Part shown: positions 7 through 22,925 of the stretch, in pieces | How the letters are laid out: every line of letters begins with the position of its first letter | Numbering within the stretch: the stretch's first letter is position 1 | Virus record (IMG/VR): IMGVR_UViG_3300050019_000135 | Location: 1 to 24,645 of that record | DNA length: 24,645 nt | Reading direction: 5' to 3' (one strand) | From: a virus | The notes under the pieces: generated by a model | Told to the model about the DNA's origin: nothing | Database searches by the model: none | The model's input: the letters and a program-made list of their open reading frames with translations, nothing else | Translations under genes and position numbers: made by a program

Positions 7-16
7 TGTGATCTTG

Positions 17-625: not shown

Positions 626-638
626 ATTTAAGCCTCCT

Positions 639-2285: not shown

Positions 2286-2312
2286 TTGCTGCTCCTTTCG
2301 ATAGGAAGGTGG

Positions 2313-2360: not shown

Positions 2361-2369
2361 GTATTCATG

Positions 2370-2894
2370 TTACTCGCAGGTCGCCCTAGTGCGTAGGATC
2401 TCGTAACCTGTACCGTTACAGATGCAAGCTCCGTTGGTCGAGTTAGCGTACATGCGCCCGTAGATTGCGCCAGTACAGGCATCAACGGCGGCAGCGGCGT
2501 TGACTAGCTGCACGCCATGAGCGAATGTCACGGTGTTACTGAAGGCTGCAGTTCCCACACCAGTCATCGCTCCATTGCGAACTACCGCCCCGTTTAAGGT
2601 CGTCGTTCCAGAAGCGGTTGCGTTCTGGAGAGTCGTAGTGCCAAGAAGATTGGAGTTGGTGTTATTTGCGACTCCAGCTCCGTTGACCGTACCGGAAAAC
2701 GTAACCGTACCTCCTGAGCCGAACGTGACAGCGTTGTCGATGGTCACAGGGCCGATGAGATGCGTCCTCATCGTCACCAGGAGGTCGTCACCGATAAGGT
2801 TGACGAACCTGTCCGCGAACGCCATCCCCGTAAAGGTAAGCATGAGCAGGGCAACCACAAGCCATGCCGGTACTTTCTTGTTGAGTATTTTCAT
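2370..2894 (-). CDS. Exported beta-repeat protein, probably fibre- or spike-like
   Basis: The 174-aa product has AAGGAGG just before its ATG. Residues 1-27 form a signal peptide: a basic start, a long hydrophobic core (WLVVALLMLTF) and an MAFA-D cleavage site. The mature part is dominated by short Thr/Asn/Gly/Val repeats (TVTFSG, TTTLQNA, TTTLNGAV), typical of a beta-helix or fibre shaft. The last 40 residues hold four Cys (DACTG, CICNG and a terminal TCE) that could form disulphides after export. It follows the decoration-like gene by 9 bp. The function is unknown; a secreted or virion fibre role is inferred. Confidence 0.7.
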   Translation of the reverse strand: MKILNKKVPAWLVVALLMLTFTGMAFADRFVNLIGDDLLVTMRTHLIGPVTIDNAVTFGSGGTVTFSGTVNGAGVANNTNSNLLGTTTLQNATASGTTTLNGAVVRNGAMTGVGTAAFSNTVTFAHGVQLVNAAAAVDACTGAIYGRMYANSTNGACICNGTGYEILRTRATCE

Positions 2895-2903
2895 GTCGCC
2901 TCC

Positions 2904-3350
2904 TTACGCCGGCAGGGCGAGGTGCGCGAACAGGCGTACCTTACCTGCGGTACAGGCGCCGGTCATCGTGACCGTCATGTCGATGGTGTCCGCAGCCTCG
3001 GCGGTGATATCGGTGTTGGCTGCAGTCGGCCACGCAACCGTAGAGTTAAAGATCTGCCCGAGAGTCGCGGCCTTGAGGTCGAGGTTGTCCATGAACGTGG
3101 CTCCGCCGCCCATCCCGATGTCAACGGTGAGGACGCTCGAGCCAGCGACGACCTCGAGAATCCTGACACCGACGCCGATGATCTGCGCTCCGGCCGGAAC
3201 TGCGAGAGCCTGATAGACCTCGGCCGTGGTGAGCACCGTAGTGCCGTCGGGATTTACGAGGTTGATGTCGATGAACGGAGTGCAGAAGTCGCCGGGGCCC
3301 CTGCCGTTGGTGGGGTTTGCCGTGGCTGCTGTGAGAGCTGTGTTTCCCAT
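2904..3350 (-). CDS. Possible head decoration protein
   Basis: This 148-aa protein has a GGAG site upstream of its ATG. It is the first gene after the major capsid gene, the usual place for a decoration or head-stabilising protein. The sequence is Ala/Thr/Gly/Val-rich, low in charge, with alternating hydrophobic residues suggesting a beta-sandwich (for example ILEVVAGSSVLTVDIGMGGG). It has no signal peptide, unlike the next three genes. No family is recognised from sequence alone, so the role is inferred from position and composition. Confidence 0.6.
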   Translation of the reverse strand: MGNTALTAATANPTNGRGPGDFCTPFIDINLVNPDGTTVLTTAEVYQALAVPAGAQIIGVGVRILEVVAGSSVLTVDIGMGGGATFMDNLDLKAATLGQIFNSTVAWPTAANTDITAEAADTIDMTVTMTGACTAGKVRLFAHLALPA

Positions 3351-3380
3351 CTTTTTGTGTCTCCTTCTGTGGTAAGAGTA

Positions 3381-3406
3381 CCCGCCCCAGAAATTTCTGG
3401 GGCGGG
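3381..3406 (-). other. GC-rich palindrome 3' of the capsid gene
   Basis: The stretch is a perfect 26-nt palindrome (CCCGCCCCAGAAA and its reverse complement) starting 12 nt past the major capsid stop codon. It would form a very stable hairpin on the capsid transcript. No U-run follows in the minus direction, so it may block 3' exonucleases or partly reduce read-through, keeping capsid expression above that of downstream genes. Confidence 0.65.
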
Positions 3407-3417
3407 GGTTATTTGGT

Positions 3418-4398
3418 TTAGGTGTCTATCGTTACGACCGCTACGCCGAGCAGGGTGGGCTTTACTACTTCCCACCCATGGACGAAGAGGCCATCATAGA
3501 AGTCGCCGTGCTTGCCCAGGACGTTGGTGATGTGGCGAGCGATGGTCATCTGACCGCAGAACGTCACTGCAGCGTTGTGGCCGAAGGGGATGTAGAAGAC
3601 CCTGCGGCTGACGCCGTTGATCGTAGCCGTGGTCTGCGTGGCCGTCGAGTTGGTCTTGAAGATGTTGACGTCGTATAGGTTCCTGAGCCAGCCGTTCGGG
3701 AGCAGGGCGGTGGACTTGCCCATACCGGAGTTGTTCGCGGAGCTCAGATCTCCGAGGTTGACGAGGTGCTGGATGGCCGGGGGAATGCAAGCCCAGAAGC
3801 CAGCCTCGTCGGCGTTAGTCTCGTGCAGGCAGGTGCCAATGCCCGAGAACAGCCCGGTTGCGTTGGTCTTGTCGAGGGCCAGCGGCACCGCGAGAGTACC
3901 CATATTGAACGAGCCCGAGGTCGGGCCGGCCGTGAGACCGGACAGCGAACTGTGGGCCTGCGTGATGATGCTGGCGAGGAAGTTATCCTCGACCTTCTCC
4001 GTGGTCTTGTGCGCGGCGTCGTCGAGGTACGGGCCGACCCACGAGATGTCAGACTGGCGGGCGGTGATCTCTTCCACCCTGAATGCGTACAGGACGCCCT
4101 TGTCCACGGTGAGCGTGATGCTGGGCTCCGCGAGGTCCTCGTACAAGGCTGAGAAGTCCGAGCCCTTGGCGTAGGAGTCCGATACGGAAACGTCGGGCTT
4201 GTTGCGGATGACGATCTGCTGGCCCTGGGCGAGAAGTTCCTTAGTCCAGTTGGCGTTGGTGATTGCCGTCACGGGGCTCTTACGGTAAAACTTGGCGTTG
4301 AGGTACTTGCTGTAGTCTACGGGGATGATCTGCCCGCCGGCGGTGACTCCGTAATCCGGGAAGCCTGCTGATATAGGTACGCCTACGACTGTTGCCAT
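3418..4398 (-). CDS. Major capsid protein (HK97-fold type)
   Basis: The 326-aa product lies directly downstream of the scaffold gene, as major capsid genes normally do, and has a GAGG-type site before ATG. Its sequence fits the P22-coat or N4 gp56-like branch of capsid proteins. The N-terminal arm carries a KFYRKSPVTAITN segment. It is followed by a region matching the E-loop/spine (VIRNKPDVSVSDSYAKG) and a helix (DDAAHKTTEKVEDNF). The C-terminal half holds the domain for inter-subunit contacts, with HGWEVVKPTLLGVAVVTID at the end. The length is normal for the fold. Several hundred copies would form the procapsid shell around the scaffold. The exact family is not certain; the capsid role is well supported by order and composition. 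Confidence 0.85.
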   Translation of the reverse strand: MATVVGVPISAGFPDYGVTAGGQIIPVDYSKYLNAKFYRKSPVTAITNANWTKELLAQGQQIVIRNKPDVSVSDSYAKGSDFSALYEDLAEPSITLTVDKGVLYAFRVEEITARQSDISWVGPYLDDAAHKTTEKVEDNFLASIITQAHSSLSGLTAGPTSGSFNMGTLAVPLALDKTNATGLFSGIGTCLHETNADEAGFWACIPPAIQHLVNLGDLSSANNSGMGKSTALLPNGWLRNLYDVNIFKTNSTATQTTATINGVSRRVFYIPFGHNAAVTFCGQMTIARHITNVLGKHGDFYDGLFVHGWEVVKPTLLGVAVVTIDT

Positions 4399-4433
4399 CT
4401 TTTATCCTCTTTCCATCCCCGCCACCATAAGAC

Positions 4434-5396
4434 CTAGCCGCCTAAGCAGGCTTTCAGAAGATCCTCGTCAGAGACGGGCTTGCCAGCCGCATAATCGCGG
4501 GCCAGTTTATCCCTGTCTGTCTCTGCCGCTACCTTCGTCTTGGTCCCCTCGGTGAGAGGGATTGCTGGTGTGCGATTCCCCGCCATGCTCATCTGAGCAA
4601 CAACTTCTGGGGTTACGCCCTTGGTTTTTACTGGAGCAGGGGGCGTCGGAGCGGCCGCAGACTTCGTGGCTGCGTAAGCGCGGTAGATCCTGCTCACGGT
4701 TTTGTGATCGTTACACTGGTCTGCCTGCACGAGCGCACCCATCAGGGGCACCGTGTACGCGGAGCCTTCTTTGAGCCATGCTGCGAATGCCGGATCAAGC
4801 CGCGTCTGCTCGTAGTTCTCGATGGTCTTCGGAAGCGCAGTCAAGAAGAGCTGTCTGTCCGATGCAGCACGAGCGGCGAGTATTGACTCCGCCGTCTGCT
4901 TCACGTCCGCCACGGCCTTGCCGATCTTGTCCTCTGCTGAGGTGCGGTTGAGCTTCGTCATCTTTACGATGGCGGCAGCTAAATCGTCACCGGCGAGTTC
5001 TTTGATCTGTGCTACGAGTGCAGTCTCTTCTTCCGTCATGGCCATGGTGGCTGCGGCTCCCATTGCTGCTCTGACCTCGGAAAGCTCCCTTGCCATCTCA
5101 GCCAGGGTAGCGTCCTTCTGCTTGATCTCTGCTGCTTGCGCTTTTGCGATTCCGTCTGTCACAGAAAATTTCTGCTTGTAGTCGGGCTCGGGTTTCGACT
5201 CAGCCGGGATGGCTGCCGTAGGAAGAGCGGTCTCCGGTTCAGGGGCTGCGGGGATCTCCGGTTCGGGTTCCGATGGAGTTACCACTGCCACTGATGGATC
5301 AGGCTCTGCTTGTACAGTGCCAATCCCTAGAAGGGCTTTCAGCTCGGGCGGCAGGGCTGTCTCTTCTAGTTCTGTCGTCTGTGTCTCTGTGTTCAA
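4434..5396 (-). CDS. Capsid scaffold protein
   Basis: This 320-aa acidic protein starts at TTG, chosen because AGGAGG lies 8 nt upstream and no ATG is better placed. Residues about 35-75 are Pro/Glu-rich (many PEPE repeats) and probably disordered. Residues about 80-130 are Ala/Glu/Lys-rich with heptad spacing (IKQKDATLAEMARELSEV), a likely coiled coil. The C-terminus has an ADRDKLARDYAAGKP-like segment and a final helix, which in scaffold proteins often binds the coat. The position between portal and capsid genes is classical. Scaffold proteins are poorly conserved, so this rests on position and composition. Confidence 0.78.
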   Translation of the reverse strand: MNTETQTTELEETALPPELKALLGIGTVQAEPDPSVAVVTPSEPEPEIPAAPEPETALPTAAIPAESKPEPDYKQKFSVTDGIAKAQAAEIKQKDATLAEMARELSEVRAAMGAAATMAMTEEETALVAQIKELAGDDLAAAIVKMTKLNRTSAEDKIGKAVADVKQTAESILAARAASDRQLFLTALPKTIENYEQTRLDPAFAAWLKEGSAYTVPLMGALVQADQCNDHKTVSRIYRAYAATKSAAAPTPPAPVKTKGVTPEVVAQMSMAGNRTPAIPLTEGTKTKVAAETDRDKLARDYAAGKPVSDEDLLKACLGG

Positions 5397-5412
5397 TTTG
5401 CTACCTCCTGCT

Positions 5413-5482
5413 GATGGAACCGTGACACGGCCCGCTTCAGCCTATATACGCCTACCGATGGAACCGCGACACGGCCCGCTTC
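5413..5482 (-). repeat. Direct repeat of 26 bp upstream of the scaffold gene
   Basis: Positions 5413-5438 and 5457-5482 are the same 26-bp sequence with one mismatch (core GACACGGCCCGCTTC), 44 bp apart. They occupy the only gap between the 85-aa gene and the scaffold Shine-Dalgarno. They could be RNA- or protein-binding sites that tune scaffold translation, or the remains of a duplication. Confidence 0.85.
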
Positions 5483-5492
5483 GGAATTGCTC

Positions 5493-5750
5493 TTACGCAA
5501 ATGCACCAGGTGCTCCTTTTTCTACTGCCTTGACAGCCGTCTGTGCTCTGGCGATTGCCACATCCTTGAAAACGAAGTCTATCTGCTGAATGCTGCCCTG
5601 ATATACCGCGATACGATGCGCGTCAGTCTCGTTTACGAGAGCAGCCACGAGCAGGATACGCTCTGTCTCGAGGTTTTCAAGGAAAACAGCAAAGGCAGGC
5701 GTCTCGGAGAGCACCAAAAGAGCATGCTGAACCTCTTCCTTGGTCTTCAT
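5493..5750 (-). CDS. Small portal-coupled protein, function unknown
   Basis: An 85-aa protein whose ATG overlaps the portal stop codon (ATGA, 4 nt), so translation is probably coupled to the portal. It is mostly helical and acidic at the start (MKTKEEVQHALLVL), with a central segment rich in Leu, Glu and Val and no Cys. Small genes between portal and scaffold are common in podovirus-like phages and may help assembly. No family is recognised. Confidence 0.7.
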   Translation of the reverse strand: MKTKEEVQHALLVLSETPAFAVFLENLETERILLVAALVNETDAHRIAVYQGSIQQIDFVFKDVAIARAQTAVKAVEKGAPGAFA

Positions 5751-7894
5751 CGAGTGGCCACCGGATTAAACGTGCGGAAAGCGCCACCGGACACGGGATT
5801 ACCCGCCTGATCTGTGGTTGGGGAGCTAGGTATCTGGCCCGGAATAGGAGCACCAGGGGGCGAGGCACCATCAGGACCAGTCTGAGGCGCCTGAGCCGCC
5901 ATTTGCGCCTGCATCTGCTGCACGCTGGCGTCTATCTCGTCGTCGCTCGGGATTGCCTCTTCCGTAGGCATAGACATCCCTCCAATCCAGCCTCGGTACA
6001 TGGCGGCCCTGTTCTTGGCCTTGATCCATATGTTGTCCGTGGGGTTGTTCGAGATGGTGAGCAGATCTTTGTACATGCCGGCCTCCTGCTGCTTGGCCAT
6101 GACAGAGATCGCATCCGTGATGTTGACTGTGGCGTCGCCTTTTATGGAGTCGTCGTCGATGTACTGCATGTTCCACAAGTACAGCGCGGCGAGCCGCGTG
6201 TCTACGACCTCGCTCAGGAGGCAGGATACCAGATCCTTGATGCCACGACCGGCGTTGTCGTTCTGCATAGCAAAGCCAGAAGCGGTGGGAAGCGCTCCGG
6301 ATGCGTCGCCATGACTGAACGAGGGGATGCCGGTTACGTTGTCAGCCTCGGTGGAGAGATACTGCCGGAGTGAGAGTAGTCTGTCTGCGATAAGCGGAGA
6401 CTCGAACCACTCTACAGCCTTGCCGTTGTCGCCTGGGTTGCGCGGATTGCTCTGCGTGAGGAACGTGCGACCGGGGTACAGGGAACCTATGTCCTCGCCC
6501 GGTGCCATCTTGTCCACGTTTATAGCAGCCATGGAGCCAGCGGCGATGGCTATGTTGTAAGCCGACATTCTGACGAGCTGGTTTACCTCATCCTGCACGT
6601 CGGCCATCACATGCGGTATACCGTGATACCAGCAGGAGTTAGAGCGCTTCTGAAAGCCCATCATGGAAAACTTGCAACTGCACATACGGACAGGATTTAC
6701 AATGACCTTCACGGTAAGATGCCCGACTACCAGACACTCCACGTCATATACCTGATTTGCATCGGGAACAGTGGTCTCATCGAGGCCCCAGTCTAGGAGC
6801 TTCTGGCCATCTATGTACCCATTGAACTGCAGCACCTGTAGAATCTTTTGCGCATTCACCATAACATTCTGGCTGTTGAGGGTCTTGACCTGCTGATCTA
6901 TGGGAAGCTGCAGGTCGAATCCATCCGGCATCTCCATGATGGCCTTTTTTACGTTATCGTCGTTGAAGCCGGGGATGCCGACGAACGAAGCGAACTTCTG
7001 GCGGGAGAACCTTCTGCGGACGATTATGTCTCCGTCCTCAATGTTCTCGACCTGTGGTGCCGGGAAGAAGTCTATGGGGTCGATGCGCTCGAAAGCGGGG
7101 ACATACTCGTCTACGTCCATGGTCGTCCACTTCCCTGTAGCAGGGTCTTTCTGCGCTGACTTGCGAGTACGGTGCTGAATGACGGGACCCTCGAGTATAC
7201 CTCCGGGGAGTCGTATGGCGTCGTGGATGACCTTCTTTATGGTCTTGGTCCACTCACCCTTGAGGAGCTGGTCGTCGATCTTGGTCTGCATGTTGCCAAC
7301 GATCTTCGTGGCGAACTCCATGCGCATCTTGTTGACCTGATCGAGCATGGGGTCCATATGCTGATCTACAAGCGCAACGTATTGGGCAGGGTAGTCCTGA
7401 GCATTTGGGATAGGATGCCCCATCTGCTGTAGCACCTGCAGCTTGGCTATCGTATGCTGAAGTATGAGATTGCTGACCTCATCGTCGAGATCGGGGAGCG
7501 GATTGGGCTCAAGCGAGAACCAGCGCTTCGCGGCGTTGAGCACGAGGTTCATGGCGACCTCCGCGTCCCGGCACTTCTGGCTCGTAGCTTTGCGGAAGTT
7601 CGGGGGAAGACCGTCGCCCAGGATCGCGGAAAGTTTGTCGGGAGGGTAGATCCCCTCACAACGCCTCATGCAGTCGAGGATCTCGTTCTCAATGGGGAGC
7701 TTTGCGGTACGGTGGAGCTCGAACTGGCCGCGCACGTAGTTGGCTATGGCATCGATTGCAATCTTCGTGTCGTCGGAGGTCTGGTCAGCGGGATTTGGGT
7801 TCTTGAAGCCCTCGGAATAGTTTAAATCAGGGCGTGTAAAGGCAATCTGAGTGTCGCCAGCAGAGGAATTCTGAACTGGTGCCGTGGTTGCCAT
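5747..7894 (-). CDS. Portal protein (head-to-tail connector vertex)
   Basis: The 715-aa product matches large portal proteins of P22-like and other podovirus-type phages in length and arrangement. An N-terminal helical region is followed by a mixed core with IDPIDFFPAP (about residue 275), a motif that often marks the wing/stem area. Then come a strand-rich part with GIPHVMADVQDEVNQLV and YPGRTFLTQ, and the segment DNVTGIPSFSHGD near residue 530, seen in this protein class. The C-terminus, from about 645, is rich in Gln, Pro and Gly and probably disordered. Twelve copies form the ring through which DNA is packaged by TerL. No Shine-Dalgarno precedes the ATG; a promoter -10 lies only 6 nt upstream. 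Confidence 0.85.
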   Translation of the reverse strand: MATTAPVQNSSAGDTQIAFTRPDLNYSEGFKNPNPADQTSDDTKIAIDAIANYVRGQFELHRTAKLPIENEILDCMRRCEGIYPPDKLSAILGDGLPPNFRKATSQKCRDAEVAMNLVLNAAKRWFSLEPNPLPDLDDEVSNLILQHTIAKLQVLQQMGHPIPNAQDYPAQYVALVDQHMDPMLDQVNKMRMEFATKIVGNMQTKIDDQLLKGEWTKTIKKVIHDAIRLPGGILEGPVIQHRTRKSAQKDPATGKWTTMDVDEYVPAFERIDPIDFFPAPQVENIEDGDIIVRRRFSRQKFASFVGIPGFNDDNVKKAIMEMPDGFDLQLPIDQQVKTLNSQNVMVNAQKILQVLQFNGYIDGQKLLDWGLDETTVPDANQVYDVECLVVGHLTVKVIVNPVRMCSCKFSMMGFQKRSNSCWYHGIPHVMADVQDEVNQLVRMSAYNIAIAAGSMAAINVDKMAPGEDIGSLYPGRTFLTQSNPRNPGDNGKAVEWFESPLIADRLLSLRQYLSTEADNVTGIPSFSHGDASGALPTASGFAMQNDNAGRGIKDLVSCLLSEVVDTRLAALYLWNMQYIDDDSIKGDATVNITDAISVMAKQQEAGMYKDLLTISNNPTDNIWIKAKNRAAMYRGWIGGMSMPTEEAIPSDDEIDASVQQMQAQMAAQAPQTGPDGASPPGAPIPGQIPSSPTTDQAGNPVSGGAFRTFNPVATR

Positions 7895-7900
7895 GGGTAA

Positions 7901-7929
7901 ATACTACACGAACTAAAGATAAAAATCAA
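7901..7929 (-). promoter_or_regulatory. Promoter for the structural genes, with a near-leaderless start
   Basis: On the minus strand TTGATT (7929-7924) and TAGTAT (7906-7901) are 17 nt apart, close to the sigma-70 consensus. The portal ATG begins 6 nt after the -10 box, so the expected transcript would start at or beside the start codon. No Shine-Dalgarno is present, in contrast to most genes here, which fits a leaderless mRNA. Confidence 0.55.
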
Positions 7930-7960
7930 GTAAAAAATACTCAATTACAAAATTGTTGGA

Positions 7961-7987
7961 TAGTAACTACCAGTTGGGTAGTTTCTA
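7961..7987 (-). promoter_or_regulatory. Inverted repeat upstream of the structural promoter
   Basis: AACTACC (7965-7971) pairs with GGTAGTT (7977-7983) around a 5-nt loop, and after one mismatch the pairing extends by TAG/CTA. It lies in the 186-bp AT-rich gap between the methyltransferase stop and the portal promoter. It may be an operator or a weak transcript end for the upstream unit. No U-run sits directly after it. Confidence 0.45.
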
Positions 7988-8080
7988 CACGTCAGATTGC
8001 ATAATAAAACTTTGTGTCGCATCTGATATACGCAAACTGGTTTGTGTAAACTGGATTGGGTTTCGTGAGTCACAAAGATG

Positions 8081-9025
8081 TCAAGTCTGCCGATTCTCAA
8101 TTATCCCGCTTGCTATAATATACTCCTTCAATCGCAGTGCAATATATTCAGCTAATTTAACGGGTACTGCATTCCCTATAATTTGCTCTACATCTGTTTT
8201 GTTGCCCCAAAGGATAGTCTTAGGGGGAAAAGTTTGGATCATGCTGCGCTCTCTCGTGGTTAAAGGTCTGACATCCATCGTGACAGCTAATGTGTCACCC
8301 GAATGCCCGGTATATCCAGCGGGAACGGGGCGGTTCACTCCTCTTATTGTGGGGCTCGGTTCATCGACGCTAAAAACGCCTCTTCGCTTGTAACTACGCG
8401 GATGGCGATAGTAATGTTCAAAGTCAAGCCCATCTTTAAAGTATTCACGGATAGTCATGGGTTTATCTGCAAGGCGTTGTTCTATCAAAGTATTCAGAAA
8501 GCCGTCTGCGCCGTCTTTTTGGCCTATAACAAAAAGACGTTTTCGGAGTTGCGGAACCCCGCATAAGCTCGCGTTCACCACCTTAATACTAAGTCCATAC
8601 CCGGCACGCTTGAAGATAGCACAAGCGTGCATAAAGGCATTGCTTTGTTCGGCCCTCGCCACGTTCTCCATGACGAAGAAACGAGGGTTAACTTTCTGTA
8701 TTATATTGGCGAAAGTTATTGTTAGATCGGCTCGCCCTAACTTTTCATCCCGCTTTCCTGCCGACGAAAAATCTTGGCAAGGAGGCCCGCCGATAATGAT
8801 GTCTGGGGAAAACCCTTGGATTTTGTTGATGGCATCAACAGAAGATAGGTCGGTTTTAATTATTGGATGTTTGGGAAAGTTGGCCTTATAAAATTCATAT
8901 GCGGGCTGCCAGTTATCAAAGGCCGCGACAACATCGTATCCCGCATTGGTAAAACCCAATGAAAAGCCACCACCACCTGCGAATAGATCAACTATTCTTA
9001 ACGATAATTTTCTGCGCCTATTCAT
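8081..9025 (-). CDS. DNA (cytosine-5) methyltransferase
   Basis: The 314-aa protein carries the ordered motifs of C5-cytosine methyltransferases. Motif I is DLFAGGGGFSLGF (residues 13-25, SAM binding) and motif IV GGPPCQDFS contains the catalytic Cys83. ENV (120-122) is motif VI and QLRKR (159-163) is motif VIII. A short target-recognition region follows, then RPLTTRERSMIQTFP (motif IX) and GNAVP (motif X). It would methylate cytosine at C5 in a specific site that cannot be read from sequence. There is no restriction enzyme beside it, so it is probably an orphan enzyme protecting phage DNA from host restriction. It overlaps the membrane-protein gene by 8 bp and has AAGGAT upstream. The gene is more AT-rich than the structural genes, suggesting recent acquisition. 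Confidence 0.95.
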   Translation of the reverse strand: MNRRRKLSLRIVDLFAGGGGFSLGFTNAGYDVVAAFDNWQPAYEFYKANFPKHPIIKTDLSSVDAINKIQGFSPDIIIGGPPCQDFSSAGKRDEKLGRADLTITFANIIQKVNPRFFVMENVARAEQSNAFMHACAIFKRAGYGLSIKVVNASLCGVPQLRKRLFVIGQKDGADGFLNTLIEQRLADKPMTIREYFKDGLDFEHYYRHPRSYKRRGVFSVDEPSPTIRGVNRPVPAGYTGHSGDTLAVTMDVRPLTTRERSMIQTFPPKTILWGNKTDVEQIIGNAVPVKLAEYIALRLKEYIIASGIIENRQT

Positions 9026-9332
9026 CGAATAAATCCTTCTTGATATTTGCGGTTATCTCCTTGCCAATAGGCGTTAAGTTGATAGGACTCATTGCCGCAA
9101 CGGGTCTATTAGCGCCCAATGTGTTCTGATAAATAAGTTCCACAATAGCCCCAATCTTCACGACCTTATCGTTAAGTCCCTCTATTTTGGATATTTTATC
9201 GGCACGATGTTTAAATGTCGTAGACCATACACCGATTCTATGGATTGCCCAGAAAGCCGCGCCTAAAATAGCCAGCAAAACAAACACGCTGCTATTTAAT
9301 TGTTCGATCAGTTTTCCTAATAAGGCTTCCAT
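9018..9332 (-). CDS. Small membrane protein co-transcribed with the methyltransferase
   Basis: The 104-aa protein has one strong transmembrane segment at about residues 15-30 (SSVFVLLAILGAAFWAI), then a basic stretch and a helical, soluble tail ending in acidic DLFDE. The ATG is preceded at some distance by GGGAG. It is the first gene after a sigma-70-like promoter and overlaps the methyltransferase start by 8 bp, so the two form one unit. The fold suggests an inner-membrane anchor with a cytoplasmic domain. A superinfection-exclusion role is possible but not shown. Confidence 0.65.
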   Translation of the reverse strand: MEALLGKLIEQLNSSVFVLLAILGAAFWAIHRIGVWSTTFKHRADKISKIEGLNDKVVKIGAIVELIYQNTLGANRPVAAMSPINLTPIGKEITANIKKDLFDE

Positions 9333-9371
9333 GGGTCGCGGGCTCCCAGTTAGTGATTTAGTTTACGGCAG

Positions 9372-9400
9372 ATAATAACATCTATTGATTCCTTTGTCCA
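9372..9400 (-). promoter_or_regulatory. Sigma-70-like promoter of the methyltransferase unit
   Basis: TGGACA (9400-9395) and TATTAT (9377-9372) lie exactly 17 nt apart on the minus strand, with the expected start near 9365. It sits downstream of the hairpin/U-tract at 9505-9594, so it would restart transcription after a terminator and allow the methyltransferase to be expressed independently. Confidence 0.6.
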
Positions 9401-9504
9401 CATGATTAAGATCGTCTCATCCCCGATCGTTCTCATGTATAAAGTATACCAGAACATAACCCATCAAATGGGGTTAAGGGAGTTAACTATATAATTCCCC
9501 TAAT

Positions 9505-9594
9505 AAAAAAGAGGCGTCCGAAGAGGGTTCGCAGGCCCTCAACCTCCTGGCTGACCAGGGCTCTTCAGCATTTGAGCTACTCGGACAAAGCCTC
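9505..9594 (-). ncRNA. tRNA-like hairpin with terminator U-tract (degenerate tRNA)
   Basis: On the minus strand the sequence folds as a cloverleaf. The acceptor arms are GTCCGAG (9586-9580) and TTCGGAC (9522-9516). T8-A9 is followed by a D-arm GCTC/GAGC with a bacterial-looking A14/A21, and the T-stem is GAGGG/CCCTC. Two features are abnormal. The anticodon hairpin is CCTGG-TCAG-CCAGG with a 4-nt loop instead of 7, and the T-loop is 8 nt without TTC. An extra GAGGC/GCCTC pairing (9594-9590 with 9515-9511) lengthens the base stem, and six U follow (9510-9505). It is best read as a tRNA-derived structure acting as a terminator or structured RNA, not a decoding tRNA. It could also be a decayed tRNA gene. 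Confidence 0.6.
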
Positions 9595-9633
9595 CATGAG
9601 AATTTTACCAAACTCTAAATTCAGTGTCAAGGC

Positions 9634-9771
9634 TTATTGCTGCCTAAACACAGGGATAGTTTTAAGAAAAGGATCCTCTACGACTTCCTCAAGGAACTCA
9701 AACACGTACCACTGATGCTGTGCCCAGCGGGCAAGGGCTTGAGTTAAAGCGTCGGGGTTATACTGGGCCAC
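9634..9771 (-). CDS. Short protein of 45 aa, coupled to the zinc-ribbon gene
   Basis: The reading starts at a GTG that shares its first G with the preceding TAG stop (TAGTG), a sign of re-initiation. The product begins MAQYNPDALTQALARWAQHQ, then aromatic and acidic residues (WYVFEFLEEVVED) and a Phe-Arg-Gln-Gln end. It looks helical and soluble. It is the last gene before the tRNA-like terminator. The same TAGTG junction occurs at 10476. No family is recognised; no strong Shine-Dalgarno is seen. Confidence 0.5.
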   Translation of the reverse strand: MAQYNPDALTQALARWAQHQWYVFEFLEEVVEDPFLKTIPVFRQQ

Positions 9772-12745: not shown

Positions 12746-12774
12746 ACTCTATCATACGCCAAGACAAAAGTCAA
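12746..12774 (-). promoter_or_regulatory. Promoter ahead of the ribbon-helix-helix and terminase genes
   Basis: TTGACT (12774-12769) and TAGAGT (12751-12746) are 17 nt apart, and the ATG starts 6 nt after the -10 box, the same geometry as the portal promoter. An overlapping TATGAT (12756-12751) is a second -10 candidate. The transcript would be nearly leaderless. It overlaps the end of the second HNH-like gene. Confidence 0.5.
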
Positions 12775-13268
12775 TAACTAATTTTCAGGCGATCTTTGTA
12801 CTCCTCCACGGTGGGGCGCCAGGGGGCGCCGATGTCGAGCAGGGAGAGGAACTCCGACCAGAGCTCGTTTGAGAGGTCGGGCGTCGGGCGATACTGCTTT
12901 GGGAAAAGCCCCTCTTCCTGCACCATAAGAGGCTTGGGTACGATATGCGCCGGATTGACGCAGCGACTATTCTCGCAAGTCAAGATAAGGGGCCGATCCG
13001 AAGGGAGCACGAGATACTCGTCATAGAATGCCACTGATCGCGCCAGGTAACAAGTATTTCTATCCCGATAAATAGGACTCGTTAGAATGCCGCTGTTGCT
13101 GTAAAACGACCAGCAGGTGTCGGGGGCGTCTTTATTGACATGCTCCCAAAACCTTTTTACCCGAGACTGCCCCATAAACGGAGGACGTATGCATGGGTCC
13201 TGGATAAGGCGCCGGTACGCCTCTATGTCCGGGGGCTTAAACTTTTTCAACAGGTCCCTTCCAGTCAT
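12771..13268 (-). CDS. HNH-like endonuclease, degenerate, upstream of terminase
   Basis: The 165-aa protein contains CWSFYSNSG early and LILTCENSRCVNPAHIV later, closely resembling the zinc-binding, His-containing half of HNH_3-type nucleases. The position normally occupied by the first catalytic His (HxC..RxCVNPxHL) is Thr here, so activity is doubtful. It overlaps the preceding HNH-like gene by 32 nt. TTG at residue 7, with GGAAGGG upstream, is an alternative start. HNH proteins next to terminase can cut at cos sites, but a free-standing homing-type gene is equally possible. Confidence 0.65.
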   Translation of the reverse strand: MTGRDLLKKFKPPDIEAYRRLIQDPCIRPPFMGQSRVKRFWEHVNKDAPDTCWSFYSNSGILTSPIYRDRNTCYLARSVAFYDEYLVLPSDRPLILTCENSRCVNPAHIVPKPLMVQEEGLFPKQYRPTPDLSNELWSEFLSLLDIGAPWRPTVEEYKDRLKISY

Positions 13269-13602
13269 TGAATTTTTTAATCATGTCTCGGCGGCGCTGA
13301 TGTCCGCAAGCGCAAGCATCGGAGTGCTTTACTTCGACAAGATGAGCAGGGTTAAAACAATTTGGGTCATGGCACGTTCTACTGATGACGTGTCGTAATT
13401 CTACTGGCCTTCCATGGGTAAAAAAGAAAACGAGGTGCGAGAGTACGAATCTTTCTTCACCTATGACCATCACTGTGTTACCACCACTTTCAGGGCGGGA
13501 GCATAGAAACCAGCATTCATCAGGTCCACCTATATCAATCCGATTGAATACTCGCCGCTTGTTCGCTTCCGTATCGATTCCAGTGTAGTCGTGGTAGTTC
13601 AT
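13237..13602 (-). CDS. HNH-like endonuclease, first gene of the leftward operon
   Basis: A 121-aa protein with CWFLCSRPESGG, then RHVISRTCHDPNCFNPAHLV, the conserved C-terminal half of HNH_3-type nucleases. His107-like C-A-C-G-H residues occur near the end (ACACGHQRRR). As in its neighbour, the canonical His before Cys is displaced (VISRTC), though a His lies 5 residues earlier. AAAGGA precedes its ATG by 7 nt, and TTGACA/TATAGA lies upstream. The pair arose perhaps by duplication. Confidence 0.65.
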   Translation of the reverse strand: MNYHDYTGIDTEANKRRVFNRIDIGGPDECWFLCSRPESGGNTVMVIGEERFVLSHLVFFFTHGRPVELRHVISRTCHDPNCFNPAHLVEVKHSDACACGHQRRRDMIKKFNDWKGPVEKV

Positions 13603-13634
13603 ATCTATCCTTTCGTATCCTCGTGATACTTTAT

Positions 13635-13662
13635 TCTATATTCTTTTATAACCGAATGTCAA
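13635..13662 (-). promoter_or_regulatory. Main late-operon promoter
   Basis: TTGACA (13662-13657, consensus) and TATAGA (13640-13635) are 16 nt apart on the minus strand, with the expected start near 13628, 26 nt before the ATG of the first HNH-like gene. It would drive HNH, ribbon-helix-helix, terminase and following genes. Confidence 0.65.
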
Positions 13663-13744
13663 GCTCCAGCAGGTGACGTTGAATTTTTCTAATATGGGCC
13701 GGGCTCAAAGGAACTGAATTCGGTTTTGAGTGACGTGGATTTGG

Positions 13745-13872
13745 CAGGATACTGTCACCTTAGCAGTTTATTCTTCCTAATCGCCAAGCATTTTTTATAA
13801 ATACTGTAATCAAATCAATATGAAAACCTATACATTTAGAATTTTTAGTATAGGTGACACACCTGTATCCTG
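13745..13872. repeat. Inverted pair of CAGGATAC/TGTCACCT sites
   Basis: CAGGATAC plus TGTCACCT at 13745-13760 recurs inverted at 13852-13872 (AGGTGACA and GTATCCTG), where a 5-nt CACCT is inserted between the halves. The second copy also forms AGGTG-ACA-CACCT. Two such sites next to a serine recombinase gene could be its crossover or accessory sites, or repressor operators. Confidence 0.6.
13827..13854. promoter_or_regulatory. 7-bp inverted repeat in the control region
   Basis: CCTATAC (13827-13833) and GTATAGG (13848-13854) are perfect complements around 14 nt of AT-rich DNA. The right arm abuts the AGGTGACA site. This spacing suits a dimeric regulator or recombinase. Confidence 0.5.
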
Positions 13873-13957
13873 ATATTATTCAGTTGCATAGAAAACGTAA
13901 TAAAATCATAGCTTATCAATTGTGAATCCTGCAGAAAACAGGGGTGTGTGTGGATAC

Positions 13958-14013
13958 CGCTAATTAGCGTGATAAAAAACATCTTGACAAAGACGCTAAA
14001 GGCGTGTTATCAT
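13958..14013 (+). promoter_or_regulatory. Recombinase promoter with two related operator-like sites
   Basis: TTGACA (13984-13989) and TATCAT (14008-14013) are 18 nt apart. The spacer carries ACGCTAAAGGCGTG (13993-14006), an imperfect dyad. A perfect 12-bp palindrome CGCTAATTAGCG (13958-13969) lies just upstream and shares CGCTAA and GCGTG with it. Two similar dyads at a core promoter are typical of operators for a repressor. Confidence 0.6.
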
Positions 14014-14054
14014 CTTCACAAGGAGTCCAATAAACACGTCAAGGAGCCACTGCC

Positions 14055-14732
14055 ATGCAGAAGTACATAAGCTACCTCAGAGTGAGCACAGATTCGCAAG
14101 GAGTCGTAGGATTGGGCATGGCTGCCCAGGAGGATTTGATTGCCGAGTACATCAAGAAAGAGGACGGAGACCTCCTGCAGGAGTTCAGGGAGGTCGAGAG
14201 CGGCAAGAATAACTACCGGCCGCAGCTCATCGCTGCTCTCAGGGCATGCCGCCAGACGAAGTCCACCCTGCTCATAGCGAAGATCGACAGGCTCTCCCGC
14301 AACAAGGCCTTCATCGACACGCTCTCGGAGAACAAGGACGTTTCCTTCGTGGCCTGCGACCAGCCCAAGATCAATGACCTGACTCTATCGTTCCTTGTGT
14401 TCTTTGCCGAGCTCGAGGGGAAGATGATCTCCGAGCGCACCAAAGCTGCACTGGACGCAAAGAAGGCCCGCGGCGAGGTAATCAACAGGAAGAACAACCT
14501 AACGCCAGCATCCATAGCACGGGGGCAGAAGAAAGGCCTTGAGGTACGGAAGCAGAAGGCTCTGGCGTTCGCAGAGGACTTCCCTCAGGTCCTCGAGCTG
14601 AGAGAAAGCGGAAAGACCCTGCAGGAGATCGCCGACTACCTGAACCTGAACAGGATGGAGACTCGCAGAGGCATGAAGTGGAATCCAGCTGCTGTAGCAC
14701 GGGTGGTCAAGAGGCTGCAGCCCCCAGAGTGA
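14055..14732 (+). CDS. Serine recombinase (resolvase/invertase type)
   Basis: The 225-aa protein has the catalytic N-domain of small serine recombinases: YLRVSTDSQ with nucleophile Ser11, the KIDRLSR motif (76-82) and SERTKAAL (126-133), which carries a catalytic Arg before the long E-helix. The last 60 residues hold a C-terminal DNA-binding part with TLQEIADYLN and a second helix. The length fits resolvases and invertases, not large serine integrases. It is the only gene pointing right of the divergent promoters and has AAGGAG before ATG. It could resolve dimers, invert a segment or integrate the element. Codon use and GC are close to the late genes. Confidence 0.9.
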   Translation: MQKYISYLRVSTDSQGVVGLGMAAQEDLIAEYIKKEDGDLLQEFREVESGKNNYRPQLIAALRACRQTKSTLLIAKIDRLSRNKAFIDTLSENKDVSFVACDQPKINDLTLSFLVFFAELEGKMISERTKAALDAKKARGEVINRKNNLTPASIARGQKKGLEVRKQKALAFAEDFPQVLELRESGKTLQEIADYLNLNRMETRRGMKWNPAAVARVVKRLQPPE

Positions 14733-14763
14733 ATTTTTAGGGCCAGAAAAAATCAGCCACCTG

Positions 14764-14802
14764 CATAGCCCCCTATGCCTCGCCTAAATCCAGGGGCATA
14801 GG
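14764..14802. other. Two mutually exclusive hairpins after the recombinase gene
   Basis: CATAG (14764-14768) pairs with CTATG (14773-14777). CCTATGCC (14772-14779) pairs with GGCATAGG (14795-14802). The two share 14773-14777, so only one can form. No U-run follows. It could be a weak terminator or a switching element. Confidence 0.4.
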
Positions 14803-14871
14803 TCTCTACACGACCGCAAGCATATACTTATACTCCCCCTCCTTCAATCCCGTTTAGGGATGCCGTACCGT

Positions 14872-15000
14872 CTCCCCTCATGCCCGCGCATATCCTTTAA
14901 AGACCCTTTTTCACGCTCTCCGGGTCTTGATAGACGCTCCCCTCAAGCCCGCGCATATCCTTTAAAGACCTTTTTCACGCTCTCCGGTCCTTGATCGACG
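14872..15000. repeat. 65-bp tandem direct repeat with conserved internal hairpin
   Basis: Copies at 14872-14936 and 14937-15000 share GCCCGCGCATATCCTTTAAA and TTTTTCACGCTCTCC. Each has an internal hairpin: AAGACCC/GGGTCTT in copy 1 and GACC/GGTC in copy 2. One C is lost from the left arm and one G from the right, so pairing is kept. Confidence 0.85.
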
Positions 15001-15256
15001 CTCTCAGATGCCTCTTAAAGGCACAATAAAGACCGGGCCTATACCCTGCTATAGCCTTGAAACGTCTATTTAACGCCATTTTAACATTATCTATAACGTC
15101 CGTTGAGTGTCCGCTAAACCGTGTCAATCGCCCAACAGCCCAGCACCCTAAACCATAGAGCGAACGCCCGGGCGTGACTGTCATGCTAATGGCGTCAATA
15201 ATTTGGTGTTTCATTCTGAAACGTAAGTATTTAGGATTGAAGCACCGAATCTGTTA

Positions 15257-15352
15257 TCAAGTAACTTGATATGATGTGACTCAAGTAACTTGATATGATG
15301 TGACTCAAGTAACTTGATATGATGTGACTCAAGTAACTTGATATGATGTGAC
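15257..15352. repeat. Four perfect 24-bp iterons, each with a 13-bp palindrome
   Basis: Units at 15257-15280, 15281-15304, 15305-15328 and 15329-15352 are identical; the next four bases (TCAA) begin a fifth. Each starts with TCAAGTAACTTGA, a palindrome around one central A, followed by TATGATGTGAC. A 24-bp period is a little over two helix turns. This looks like an array for an initiator, partition or repressor protein. Confidence 0.95.
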
Positions 15353-15356
15353 TCAA

Positions 15357-15373
15357 TAGGACAAAATGTCCTA
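15357..15373. promoter_or_regulatory. Dyad adjoining the iterons
   Basis: TAGGACA, three A and TGTCCTA form a perfect 7-bp dyad. It starts 4 nt after the fourth iteron and is unrelated in sequence to the iteron palindrome. A second protein may bind here. Confidence 0.55.
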
Positions 15374-15479
15374 CTAAAACCCCGGACCCCGCTCCGTGCT
15401 CCCGCATCCGCCATATAAAGGATAGCAAGCGCCGTGCCGTTACCTGCTAATCAGCGCCGTAAAAATCCCATCACGTAAC

Positions 15480-15497
15480 ATGCTGATTAATCAGCAT
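15480..15497. promoter_or_regulatory. 18-bp perfect palindrome
   Basis: ATGCTGATTAATCAGCAT is a perfect palindrome. A related core, CTGCTAATCAGC, occurs at 15444-15455. It borders the AT-rich stretch upstream of the early promoter and is a good operator or initiator-binding candidate. Confidence 0.6.
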
Positions 15498-15560
15498 AAT
15501 TAACTATATATAAATTAATGCTCATAAATCAAAACCCATGCCAATTTCCCATCATAAAAC

Positions 15561-15596
15561 ACCACAATATATAGTGGTCTTTCCCTGCTAAAGACC
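15561..15596 (+). other. Competing hairpins upstream of the early operon
   Basis: ACCAC (15561-15565) can pair with GTGGT (15574-15578), and GGTCTTT (15576-15582) with AAAGACC (15590-15596). They share GGT, so the folds are exclusive. They lie upstream of the visible promoter, so any RNA role would need an earlier start. Confidence 0.4.
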
Positions 15597-15634
15597 GCAA
15601 GATATGGTAAAATCATCATTTTAGCATTTTTAGC

Positions 15635-15663
15635 TTGCAAGGTCCTATTTGAAATGATAAAAT
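15635..15663 (+). promoter_or_regulatory. Early-operon promoter
   Basis: TTGCAA (15635-15640) and TAAAAT (15658-15663) are 17 nt apart. The expected start near 15670 gives a leader of about 55 nt that contains a GCGC...GCGC hairpin (15677-15696) before the GGAGG of the first gene. It probably drives the whole right arm. Confidence 0.6.
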
Positions 15664-15724
15664 TAATACAGAGTAAAGCGCACCCATAGGGTAGCGCAAA
15701 ACCGAGAACACGGAGGACGTAAAA

Positions 15725-15910
15725 ATGATAATTAACGAAACGAGAGATCTGAAAACACTGATGGAGGCTAACCCCACCTGGTCGTTTGGCCCAGCCGTCC
15801 GACCGGAGCGCATCAAATGCGATTGCGGCCACACGGTCAGCAAAATCAACGTGATGACAACCGCAACCGGGACGGCATGTCCCGACTGTTACGATAGGAT
15901 GTCAGTATAA
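15725..15910 (+). CDS. Small zinc-ribbon protein, first early gene
   Basis: A 61-aa protein with GGAGG upstream of ATG. CDCGH near residue 32 and CPDC near residue 52 form a treble-clef or ribbon-like metal site. It opens the early operon, a position often held by a host-takeover or regulatory protein. Its stop overlaps the next start (TAATG). No family is recognised. Confidence 0.7.
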   Translation: MIINETRDLKTLMEANPTWSFGPAVRPERIKCDCGHTVSKINVMTTATGTACPDCYDRMSV

Positions 15911-16137
15911 TGATAACCGACACTCGGAACACCCAGGTTTTTGATGCGGGCTACGCCTACGCAATGTGGCTCCTCGAATCTGAGCCAGAAAACGCATTGC
16001 TACAGCCGGATACTACCCACGACATACCCGAGGAGGATTACTGCACGCTCTCCCGGGAGCACGGCATCAAAAACCCTGATCCGCGCACCTACTGGACTGG
16101 TTACAATGACGCAATCAGCACGGCCTCCAGCCGTTAA
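15910..16137 (+). CDS. Small acidic protein ending in a YWxGYxDAI segment
   Basis: The 75-aa product starts at ATG overlapping the preceding TAA. The N-terminus has AGYAYAMWLLE, the middle is acidic, and the C-terminus holds DPRTYWTGYNDAIS. The DNA of the last segment is duplicated at 16404-16446. No function is recognised. Confidence 0.6.
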   Translation: MITDTRNTQVFDAGYAYAMWLLESEPENALLQPDTTHDIPEEDYCTLSREHGIKNPDPRTYWTGYNDAISTASSR

Positions 16138-18959: not shown

Positions 18960-19568
18960 ATGCTTATTACAATGGACACGCTCAAGCAATGGAAAGCCTG
19001 CGAAGAGGGTTTTAACTGGTTTGCGGCAAAATACCCCCATGGGGTAGAAATCTTACCGCTGCTTGACGACTTACGGGCCGAAACGAAACGGCCATGGGCC
19101 ACTTGGTTTTTAAACAAACTCACAGCGCACTTTTGGTTGTACTCCGCCAATGCTACAGGCGATGCCGATCTGCGCGGTGCCAATCTGCGCGGTGCCAATC
19201 TGTACGGTGCCGATCTGCGCGGTGCCGATCTGCGCGGTGCCAATCTGTACGATGCCAATCTGTACGGTGCCAATCTGTACAGTGCCAATCTGTACAGTGC
19301 CAATCTGCGCGGTGCCAATCTGTACGGTGCCGATCTGCGCGGTGCCGATCTGCGCGGTGCCAATCTGTACAGTGCCAATCTGCGCGGTGCCAATCTGTAC
19401 GGTGCCAATCTGCGCGGTGCCGATCTGTACAGTGCCAATCTGCGCGGTGCCAATCTGTACGATGCCGATCTGTACGGTGCCGATCTGCGCGGTGCCGAAA
19501 TCAACGGATCAGCATCCCCGATTCCCGGTTGGGTCTATCGTGACGGCTACTTATGGAGAGCTGAGTAA
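18960..19568 (+). CDS. Pentapeptide-repeat protein with 22 repeats
   Basis: The 202-aa protein has an N-terminal helical domain (residues about 8-60, with WKACEEGFNWFAAKYP and TWFLNKL). An uninterrupted run of 22 A(D/N)L(R/Y)(G/S/D) pentads follows, forming about five and a half coils of a square beta-helix. It ends with WVYRDGYLW. Repeats of this kind in MfpA and Qnr mimic DNA and bind gyrase, but those need particular loops not seen here, so the function is open. The leader is shared with the 211-aa gene. MDTLKQW at 18972 is an alternative start. Confidence 0.85.
   Translation: MLITMDTLKQWKACEEGFNWFAAKYPHGVEILPLLDDLRAETKRPWATWFLNKLTAHFWLYSANATGDADLRGANLRGANLYGADLRGADLRGANLYDANLYGANLYSANLYSANLRGANLYGADLRGADLRGANLYSANLRGANLYGANLRGADLYSANLRGANLYDADLYGADLRGAEINGSASPIPGWVYRDGYLWRAE
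19164..19493 (+). repeat. 15-bp repeat array encoding the pentapeptides
   Basis: Twenty-two 15-bp units, nearly identical (GCC(G/A)ATCTG(C/T)(G/A)CGGT). A block of units is repeated at a 120-bp period (around 19201 and 19321). Frames on both strands stay open because the unit has no stop, which explains overlapping reading frames there. Confidence 0.95.
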
Positions 19569-21307: not shown

Positions 21308-21447
21308 TCCAAGCGGGCTATGCTGGACATAAATCCACATTCGGCACCTTCTATCGAGGTCGGGGAGATTGCGTTCCCACGCAGTCACGGATAGCCCCCG
21401 GCGCACCCCGGCCTCGTTACGAGCTGCTGCGGAGGAGAGCACTGTGA
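21304..21447 (+). CDS. 47-aa basic protein bridging to the helicase
   Basis: ATGA overlap at the start and GTGA overlap with the helicase at the end. The sequence is Gly/Arg/Pro-rich (GTFYRGRGDC, APGAPRPRYELLRRR), basic and perhaps nucleic-acid binding. The helicase Shine-Dalgarno lies in its last codons. Confidence 0.55.
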   Translation: MIQAGYAGHKSTFGTFYRGRGDCVPTQSRIAPGAPRPRYELLRRRAL

Positions 21448-22925
21448 ACTTTCGCTATCCACCATTCAAGCATCAAGCCGCCATCTTCAACAGATCGAAG
21501 GATTCAGAATACTATGGCATCTTTGCAGACTGCGGTTTAGGGAAGTCAAAAGTAGTAATAGATACCGCCGCATACCTCTATCTTGAGCACAAGATAGAGG
21601 CAATGCTCGTCGTCACAATACGCGGTGTACATAAGCAGTGGGTGGAACAGGAGGTGCCAAAACATATGAGTCCTGACGTGGCTACTGTGCATTGCTTCGC
21701 GTGGGATTCATCAAAGCATGAGACGAAAAAACATGCCGCTACGGTTGAGAATCTATTCACCTCCGCTGGTCTTAAAATACTTGCTATAAATTTCGATGCT
21801 TGTATCACCAAGGACGGTTTTAATCTTGTACAGCGTTTTTGTAAAACATTTAAAACTATCTTGATAATTGATGAATCGCATCAAGCCAAGAATCGGACAA
21901 GTCTCAGGGCCAAAGCCTTGCTCAAGTTATCCCGGCTTTGCCCTTATCGTCGAGCACTTACTGGTACTCCAGTGGGCAACAGTCCCGAGGATTTATACTC
22001 GCAGCTTGAGATACTGGCTCCTGGACTCAGCGGGTTCCAAAGTTTTTATACCTTTAGGTCATTTTTCTGCAACCTCATAACGGAATCGAACTACAGTACA
22101 GGCAGACACTACCAAATAGTCGTTTCGCACAAAAATTTGGATGTCCTTGAAAGACATCTCAAGACGTTCTCTTCTCGCGTGCTCAAGAGTGAGGCCCTGG
22201 ACCTGCCCGATCAGCTTTACCAGATCATCCCTGTGTCGCTCTCTAAGAATCAGGCGCGGCTCTATAAAGAGTTGAAGGATAATCTTATAACAGAACTTAA
22301 CGGGCAGGAAGTCACGGCTCCGTTGGCGATTGTGAAGCTCCTCAGACTCCAGCAAATTCTTGGCAACCATTTCGTCCCTGATGCAACGCCAGAGAACATG
22401 AACCCCGAACCGATAGCCATAGACCAGTCTTGCCCAAGACTCGAAGCCCTGCTAGATGTTATCGAAGGGGCCAATGGAAAGCAGGTGATTTGGAGTCGCT
22501 ACGTGGCCGAGATCAAGATGATAACCGAAGCCTTAAACAAGAAGTACGGAGCCGGATCGGCGGCAAGCTATTTTGGAGCCACGAGCACGGCTGATCGTAA
22601 GCAGCTTTTGGCTGACTTTGCTGATCCAAATAGCAAGCTCATGTACGCTGTGCTTCAGCAGCAATCTGGAGGTACGGGAATTGACGCTTTAAAAATAGCC
22701 TCTTATGTGCATTATTTTTCGAATAACTTCAGCTACATTGATCGCTATCAGACAGAGTCACGAAATCATCGTATCGGCACCGAACTGCCCGTGACATACT
22801 TTGATTATGTGGCTCCGAATACGATAGACACACATATACTTAAGGCACTTCACGCCAAGCGCGACCTATCTGCTACGGTCGTCGGTGACATACGCTCACT
22901 GCTCCAGAACTGCGAGGAACTATGA
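21444..22925 (+). CDS. SNF2-type superfamily 2 helicase
   Basis: The GTG start at 21444 is chosen because GGAGG lies 9 nt upstream and it overlaps the previous stop. The product is 493 aa. It has Walker A DCGLGKS (29-35; most relatives have Thr for Ser), a DESH box (143-146) and TGTP (173-176). The C-domain has SGGTGID (408-414) and QTESRNHRIG (436-445), the motif V and VI equivalents with an Arg finger. It should use ATP to translocate on DNA, perhaps for replication or recombination. It is the only enzyme with helicase motifs in the window; no polymerase or primase is seen. Confidence 0.92.
   Translation: MNFRYPPFKHQAAIFNRSKDSEYYGIFADCGLGKSKVVIDTAAYLYLEHKIEAMLVVTIRGVHKQWVEQEVPKHMSPDVATVHCFAWDSSKHETKKHAATVENLFTSAGLKILAINFDACITKDGFNLVQRFCKTFKTILIIDESHQAKNRTSLRAKALLKLSRLCPYRRALTGTPVGNSPEDLYSQLEILAPGLSGFQSFYTFRSFFCNLITESNYSTGRHYQIVVSHKNLDVLERHLKTFSSRVLKSEALDLPDQLYQIIPVSLSKNQARLYKELKDNLITELNGQEVTAPLAIVKLLRLQQILGNHFVPDATPENMNPEPIAIDQSCPRLEALLDVIEGANGKQVIWSRYVAEIKMITEALNKKYGAGSAASYFGATSTADRKQLLADFADPNSKLMYAVLQQQSGGTGIDALKIASYVHYFSNNFSYIDRYQTESRNHRIGTELPVTYFDYVAPNTIDTHILKALHAKRDLSATVVGDIRSLLQNCEEL

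Follow-up and report, generated by a model that had tools for sequence, protein, structure and literature searches.

A 992-bp gene-free stretch (positions 14733-15724) of a 24,645-bp virus record (IMGVR_UViG_3300050019_000135, the whole of which is called the window below) carries a palindromic tandem array next to easily melted DNA, and distant relatives have the same layout. The stretch is therefore most likely the site where replication begins and the early genes are switched on. Our specific proposal, which we regard as about an even call, is that 14733-15724 serves as both replication origin and early-control locus in a podovirus only distantly related to BcepC6B and to the group of Cronobacter phage Ss1 and Vibrio phage VA-RY-3. 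This proposal is read from sequence.

The gene-free stretch and its elements

The left part of the window encodes, on the minus strand, tail-fibre-type proteins, a major head protein (PHROG 267), a portal-type protein (PHROG 332), a C5 cytosine methylase and the large terminase (TerL). Small early genes occupy the plus strand of the right part, together with an SNF2-type helicase gene in the early block (21369-22925; PF00176, E=5e-22), which is the only recognisable replication- or recombination-type gene to the right of the 992-bp gap. The two halves are separated by a second gene-free gap (13603-14054), which is AT-rich and has divergent promoter-like sites, by the gene for a 225-aa small serine recombinase of the resolvase/invertase type (14055-14732, plus strand; PF00239, E=2e-23; PHROG 125, E=6e-34) and by the 992-bp gap. 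No terminal repeats were found in the 24,645-bp window, which to judge from relatives 31-62 kb long probably represents about half a genome. Elsewhere in the window, a low-GC island (7895-9770; 41-48%) between the portal and terminase genes looks acquired and holds the methylase gene (8081-9025) and a gene for a small membrane-type protein. Two overlapping minus-strand genes (12771-13602), one of which (13237-13602) has a weak HNH_3 match, lie between the terminase genes and the recombinase, and the early block includes a pentapeptide-repeat-type protein (18960-19568) with a 15/45-bp tandem repeat spanning about 340 bp.

The gap extends from the recombinase stop codon, which ends at 14732, to the first early gene (15725-15910, plus strand, 61 aa). 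This gene has a Shine-Dalgarno-like GGAGG, a positive coding score and a weak zinc-ribbon similarity (Zn_ribbon_8, under its cut-off). At 992 bp the gap is the largest of the contig, followed by gaps of 452, 438 and 357 bp, whereas the median spacing between genes is 0. The ORFs that fit in it are all on the minus strand (14975-15214, 15211-15414, 15231-15428, 15515-15832 and 15616-15849), and the last two extend into the first early gene. Their coding scores are negative (-0.07 to -0.31 bits per codon), compared with +0.16 to +0.35 bits per codon for all small early ORFs tested outside the gap, and none of the three gap ORFs tested had a Pfam or PHROG match above chance. Hidden genes were rejected on the basis of these scores and family searches. 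Neither Rfam families nor tRNA genes were found in the gap. Dyads with arms of at least 6 number 21, compared with 4.5 ± 2.1 in dinucleotide shuffles, and those with arms of at least 7 number 7, compared with 1.2. None of 200 shuffles reached the observed count at either arm length, although the excess is partly inflated because a four-copy array counts itself several times.

Just 3′ of the recombinase gene are two overlapping inverted repeats, GCATAG/CTATGC and CCTATGCC/GGCATAGG (14763-14802). No T run follows them, so they do not form a typical intrinsic terminator. Beyond them, two copies of a 64-65-bp direct repeat with 92% identity (14872-15003) form a candidate recombinase (res-like) site or accessory replication repeat. 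Each copy contains TAAAGACC and a TTTAAAGACC...GGTC-type dyad, and a third TAAAGACC (15027-15034, plus strand) is found 64 bp past the second TAAAGACC. All four copies of this 8-mer in the window (14898, 14963, 15027 and 15589) fall in the gap. The expected number in the window is 0.55, and none of 100 shuffles reached four.

The candidate iterons or operators are a tandem array of four copies of TCAAGTAACTTGATATGATGTGAC (15257-15356; 24 bp x 4.2 copies, 100% identity), in which each unit carries the 13-bp palindrome TCAAGTAACTTGA, extended to 17 bp in the first copy. At 3 mismatches, no further copies of the array unit beyond chance were found in the window. A palindrome, TAGGACA-aaa-TGTCCTA (15357-15373), lies directly 3′ of the array, and the dyad search also returned a perfect 18-bp palindrome, ATGCTGATTAATCAGCAT (15480-15497), half of which is similar to GCTAATCAGC at 15446. 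Duplex stability marks an AT-rich core with CTATATATAAAT (15475-15534) about 120 bp from the array end as a candidate unwinding element. This core is the third least stable 60-mer of the window; for 100- and 150-mers its location ranks second, after 13790-13939 in the other large gap, and it holds the most AT-rich 40-mer of the window, tied with one at 7914. Beside the core is an inverted pair, GGTCTTT-ccctgct-AAAGACC (15576-15596), and upstream of the first early gene is a promoter-like site, TTGCAA-17-TAAAAT (15635-15663, plus strand), in which TG precedes the second hexamer. An earlier note on this DNA had described about 990 bp without a supported gene, packed with dyads and repeats, with an AT-rich stretch directly before the early promoter. 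The absence of genes and the excess of dyads, with two direct-repeat sets, were borne out, as was the AT-rich stretch, while the promoter is a consensus match only.

Syntenic gaps and initiator genes in distant relatives

In the collections searched, no close relative of the window was found, and the gap region has no DNA match in phage or plasmid records. Protein relatives of the recombinase, TerL, the portal protein, an early 211-aa protein and the SNF2 protein reach best identities of 28-47%, and no protein relative of the major capsid was found. By TerL (32-38% identical), the distant relatives include Cronobacter phage Ss1, Vibrio phage VA-RY-3, BcepC6B and several IMG/VR contigs (designated by L numbers below). 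In Ss1, VA-RY-3 and several of the contigs, a repeat-rich gap of 0.4-1 kb lies between the early genes and the terminase block, the same place as in the window. The order in L037, L039, VA-RY-3 and Ss1 is that of the window: terminase block, gap, an early-strand gene of ~210-220 codons, repeat-rich gap and early genes. VA-RY-3 and Ss1 have an additional small gene beside the ~210-220-codon gene, and in L037 and L039 the early genes are on the opposite strand with the order unchanged.

Each syntenic gap has a private short repeat around an AT-rich core. In L037 and L039, the gap that separates a 213-aa early gene from the early gene following it measures 826 bp and contains 26-bp direct repeats (four copies, ATGACAGTAGTT, in L037) and a AATATATATATA core, and six of the seven ATGACAGTAGTT copies in the 52-kb L037 record are in this gap or its neighbour gap. 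The VA-RY-3 gap has six AGGATAAA around a AAATATATATATATT core, which are all six copies of the genome, and the Ss1 gap has GGGGATAGAAG-type repeats and a core like that of VA-RY-3. Repeats of CTTTACAC in L164 and L172 are mostly within or near the gap, four of the five genome copies of GGTGAACC in L123 are in its gap, and the gap repeats of L151 and L114 are CCAGATAAG and AATTACAT, respectively. A common aligned core of the syntenic gaps was considered and rejected, as the alignment shows no real conservation. Since the relatives' gaps have no alignable sequence, their homology rests on place and architecture. The gaps of Ss1, VA-RY-3, L037, L123, L151, L164, L172, L171 and L114 are like that of the window in place, in being gene-free over 0.4-1 kb and in having private repeats and a low-stability AT core, but no sequence can be aligned, and repeat length and motif differ in each. 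To our knowledge, none of these gaps has an experimentally mapped origin.

Gaps of at least 300 bp were compared with shuffles across 80 TerL relatives: upstream of TerL, 11 of 38 were repeat-rich (more than two-thirds were not), and downstream of it 0 of 6. The loci given the closest examination were picked partly for having gaps with repeats, and duplex stability is therefore more independent evidence than the repeat survey. The least stable 60-mer of the whole sequence falls in the syntenic gap in VA-RY-3, Ss1, L037, L171, L151, L114 and L164, and the minimum in the gap is less marked in L123, L172 and L098. A separate observation concerns L112, where palindromic units such as ACGGATAACCGT, spaced 14-15 bp apart, form two unusually dense clusters upstream of TerL (3990-4250).

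Candidate initiators are found in the relatives. In L123 and L151, a gene for a RepB_primase/PriCT_1 protein begins at the gap end (L123 also has DUF5906). L037 and L164 encode a PrimPol-DUF927 protein, PolA and SNF2; VA-RY-3 and L098 encode a DUF3987 protein; and BcepC6B encodes a primase-D5 protein. A search through DNA for D5-type families in twelve relatives was mostly negative, and direct reading of large early ORFs was more productive. No initiator gene was found in the 24.6-kb contig, itself incomplete. The SNF2 proteins of L037 and L164 share 23-24% identity with that of the window, which makes a similar replication set in the missing half at most a reasonable guess.

The origin reading thus draws on the same place, the same architecture, fast-changing repeats, the stability minimum and, in two relatives, an adjacent initiator gene. 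In the mechanism we propose, an initiator encoded in the missing genome half would bind the four palindromic iterons of 24 bp, and may bind the TAAAGACC sites as well. By analogy, this initiator would be a primase-helicase of a PrimPol-DUF927, DUF3987 or RepB/PriCT-1 kind. It would then melt the AT core (15475-15534) and load a replication fork, and the early operon would be transcribed from an early promoter at about 15635. The repeats, the lack of coding, the AT core and the recurrence of the layout in relatives are observed, whereas the initiator, its melting of the core and all functional roles in this scheme are inferred.

Two features of iteron-type origins are present in the gap: (i) a tandem short repeat (about 17-24 bp) in non-coding DNA, here 24 bp x 4, and (ii) an AT-rich, easily melted tract beside the iterons. 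Two others, DnaA boxes and a GC-skew switch of the usual sign, were not found. No DnaA-box-like site with up to one mismatch was found in the gap; such boxes are common in plasmid origins and are not required in all. The cumulative GC skew of the window switches at 14741, where it reaches its maximum, the opposite of an origin minimum, and this measure is confounded by gene direction. A negative-to-positive switch is usual at an origin and does not define one. The GC-skew minimum of the complete relatives falls in the gap (Ss1) or 1.3 kb from it (VA-RY-3), and about half a genome separates it from the maximum. Along with the skew and the DnaA boxes, the missing initiator and the unalignable gaps of the relatives count against an origin. 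The origin role that the earlier note drew from iteron architecture is therefore strengthened by the relatives, through place, architecture, stability minimum and adjacent initiators, and weakened by the lack of a window initiator, the skew sign and the lack of a DnaA box. When related genomes were searched for the repeats, the array itself was not recovered (no exact 20-mer of the 24-bp array occurs in IMG/VR), and distant relatives carry different repeats in the same place.

Possible operators, recombinase sites and plasmid functions

Perfect palindromes in the 24-bp units fit operators as well as iterons. It is unlikely, though a possibility to be taken seriously, that the region is an operator and promoter region only, in which the palindromes bind an early repressor or activator (for immunity or an early-late switch), the AT stretch is promoter DNA and replication starts elsewhere. 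The perfect 13-bp palindromes would suit a dimeric regulator, and the region lies near divergently transcribed blocks and ahead of the early operon. Promoter-like sites are also numerous (10 in 13400-15950 compared with 3.7 expected), and a weak one (15338-15367) covers the last array copy and the next palindrome. However, about 280 bp separate the array from the best early promoter match downstream of it, only weak promoter matches lie near the array, no other operator copy occurs elsewhere in the window, and the searched window proteins include no repressor. A repeat-rich gap is also retained there in relatives whose annotation lists neither repressor nor integrase. In relatives, the AT core is about 200-400 bp from the first early gene. 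Origin and operator functions may share the region by analogy with lambda, in which transcription from pR passes through the origin.

The neighbouring serine recombinase provides another explanation: the repeats could be its att or res site, for integration or dimer resolution. For the region as a whole we consider this decidedly unlikely. In alignment with nine relatives, the recombinase keeps the catalytic motifs YxRVST, KxDRLSR and ISxRTK. Its homologs, up to about 46-47% identical and with best matches in Hymenobacter and Spirosoma, are common on plasmids, where several adjoin Rep or ParA genes. The repeats of the window begin 140 bp past the recombinase gene, and among the homologs, 10 of 63 have significant repeats immediately past the 3′ end of the gene, compared with 1 of 62 immediately before its 5′ end. 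In Hymenobacter siberiensis (L045), three copies of TAAAGACC, the window's own 8-mer, lie 3′ of the homolog gene, and in a set of about 188 loci, four or more copies are present in the window and L045 alone. On the Hymenobacter plasmid pHsw2, six GGAAATCC in inverted pairs directly follow the recombinase stop codon. Because 3′ repeats recur in homologs and TAAAGACC is shared with L045, the repeats at 14872-15036 may belong to the recombinase and not to the origin; they are probably separate from the origin, as candidate binding or crossover sites of the recombinase.

These sites would account for at most 14872-15036, however, and not for the 24-bp array and the AT core. Ss1, VA-RY-3, L037, L123 and L164 have a repeat-rich gap and no such recombinase was noticed in them, whereas the phage relatives L010 and L016 carry the recombinase and have no window-like array behind its gene. 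No motif is common to all neighbourhoods of the homologs: repeats occur in a subset, mostly each with its own motif, and plasmid iterons could explain them. No crossover site was identified near the window recombinase, where dyad-bearing repeats do occur 3′ of the gene, and the 300 bp of the 13603-14054 gap adjoining it contain no repeats above chance.

Some recombinase-bearing records are of interest in their own right. Plasmid pHsw2 (NZ_CP007143) carries terminase, tape-measure, LexA-type regulator, ParA and Rep genes along with the same kind of recombinase, and is probably a phage-plasmid. Microcystis phage Mwe-JY31 (PP438423; 22 kb) encodes a recombinase with 38% identity along with a ParA-like protein, and is possibly a plasmid or phage-plasmid. 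A record listed as a virus (IMGVR_UViG_3300035212_002291, 1-8881) resembles a plasmid of about 4.8 kb repeated in tandem: a primase-type Rep of 888-893 aa and the recombinase are each encoded twice, in slightly differing versions, and TTGTGACAA repeats surround a TATATATATA core.

The phage-plasmid lifestyle suggested in the earlier note is supported only indirectly: no Rep, Par or repressor gene was found among the proteins searched in what is probably about half the genome. The annotations of Ss1 and VA-RY-3 list no integrase, repressor, Rep or Par, yet these phages have the same layout, so the region does not require such a lifestyle. The sole pointer to it is the recombinase type, found beside Rep and ParA on plasmids, and the virus is possibly a phage-plasmid. 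We think it quite unlikely that the region is a plasmid-style maintenance locus of a podovirus, in which a 3′ recombinase resolution site, an iteron origin and an early promoter would be combined, the virus would persist as a phage-plasmid and the 3′ sites of the recombinase family would change as fast as the iterons. A partition site (centromere) of a phage-plasmid prophage, with the palindromic array bound by a ParB-like or other adaptor protein, is very unlikely: tandem palindromes suit centromeres and the recombinase family is found beside ParA and Rep on plasmids, but neither ParA nor ParB was found in the searched window proteins, a ParA-type ATPase (PF01656) is absent from six related contigs, and a similar gap is present in phages without annotated plasmid functions. 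A packaging signal (pac or cos) recognised by terminase is scarcely credible, for although the gap lies within about 3 kb of the likely small terminase gene adjoining TerL and terminase sites can hold repeats, two more genes, a gap and the recombinase gene intervene, and the window has no terminal repeats.

Origin prediction and comparison with known systems

No mapped replication origins of Ss1/BcepC6B-like podoviruses were found in the literature, and they appear to be unmapped. If the region is an origin and early-control locus, a rule of place and architecture (terminase/early boundary, private iterons and a low-stability AT core) would predict origins from sequence alone across a large, poorly known virus group, and cultured phages of this group, for example VA-RY-3, could serve to test it. 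The combination of a fixed place with fast-changing iterons also raises the question of whether iterons set incompatibility between co-infecting phages.

The recombinases of Hymenobacter and Spirosoma plasmids (pHsw2 and others) are like that of the window in their catalytic motifs and, in several cases, in their 3′ repeats, but they adjoin rep or parA, whereas that of the window sits in a phage early region without them. The res site of Tn3/gamma-delta likewise combines a serine recombinase with short inverted half-sites beside its gene. In these transposons res lies 5′ of the resolvase gene, whereas the repeats of the window are downstream of the recombinase gene.

Among phage origins, the four iterons of ori-lambda are each a 19-bp imperfect inverted repeat, and an AT-rich tract lies alongside them (PMC7466680). 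Lambda and Stx phage origins are thus like the window in having four tandem iterons that are themselves inverted repeats and an AT-rich tract on one side, but their 19-bp iterons lie inside the initiator gene O, whereas the 24-bp units of the window are non-coding and no O-like gene was found (PMC7466680). The P4 origin has 8-bp type 1 repeats in both orientations and a 3 x 10-bp tandem set. P4 ori/crr, which is used with the alpha primase, resembles the window in its short repeats in both orientations, its separate tandem set and its long direct repeats that carry the short repeat. The TAAAGACC of the window, unlike the P4 type 1 repeat, is another motif in few copies, and the primase-helicases of the window's relatives are broadly similar in kind to the P4 system.
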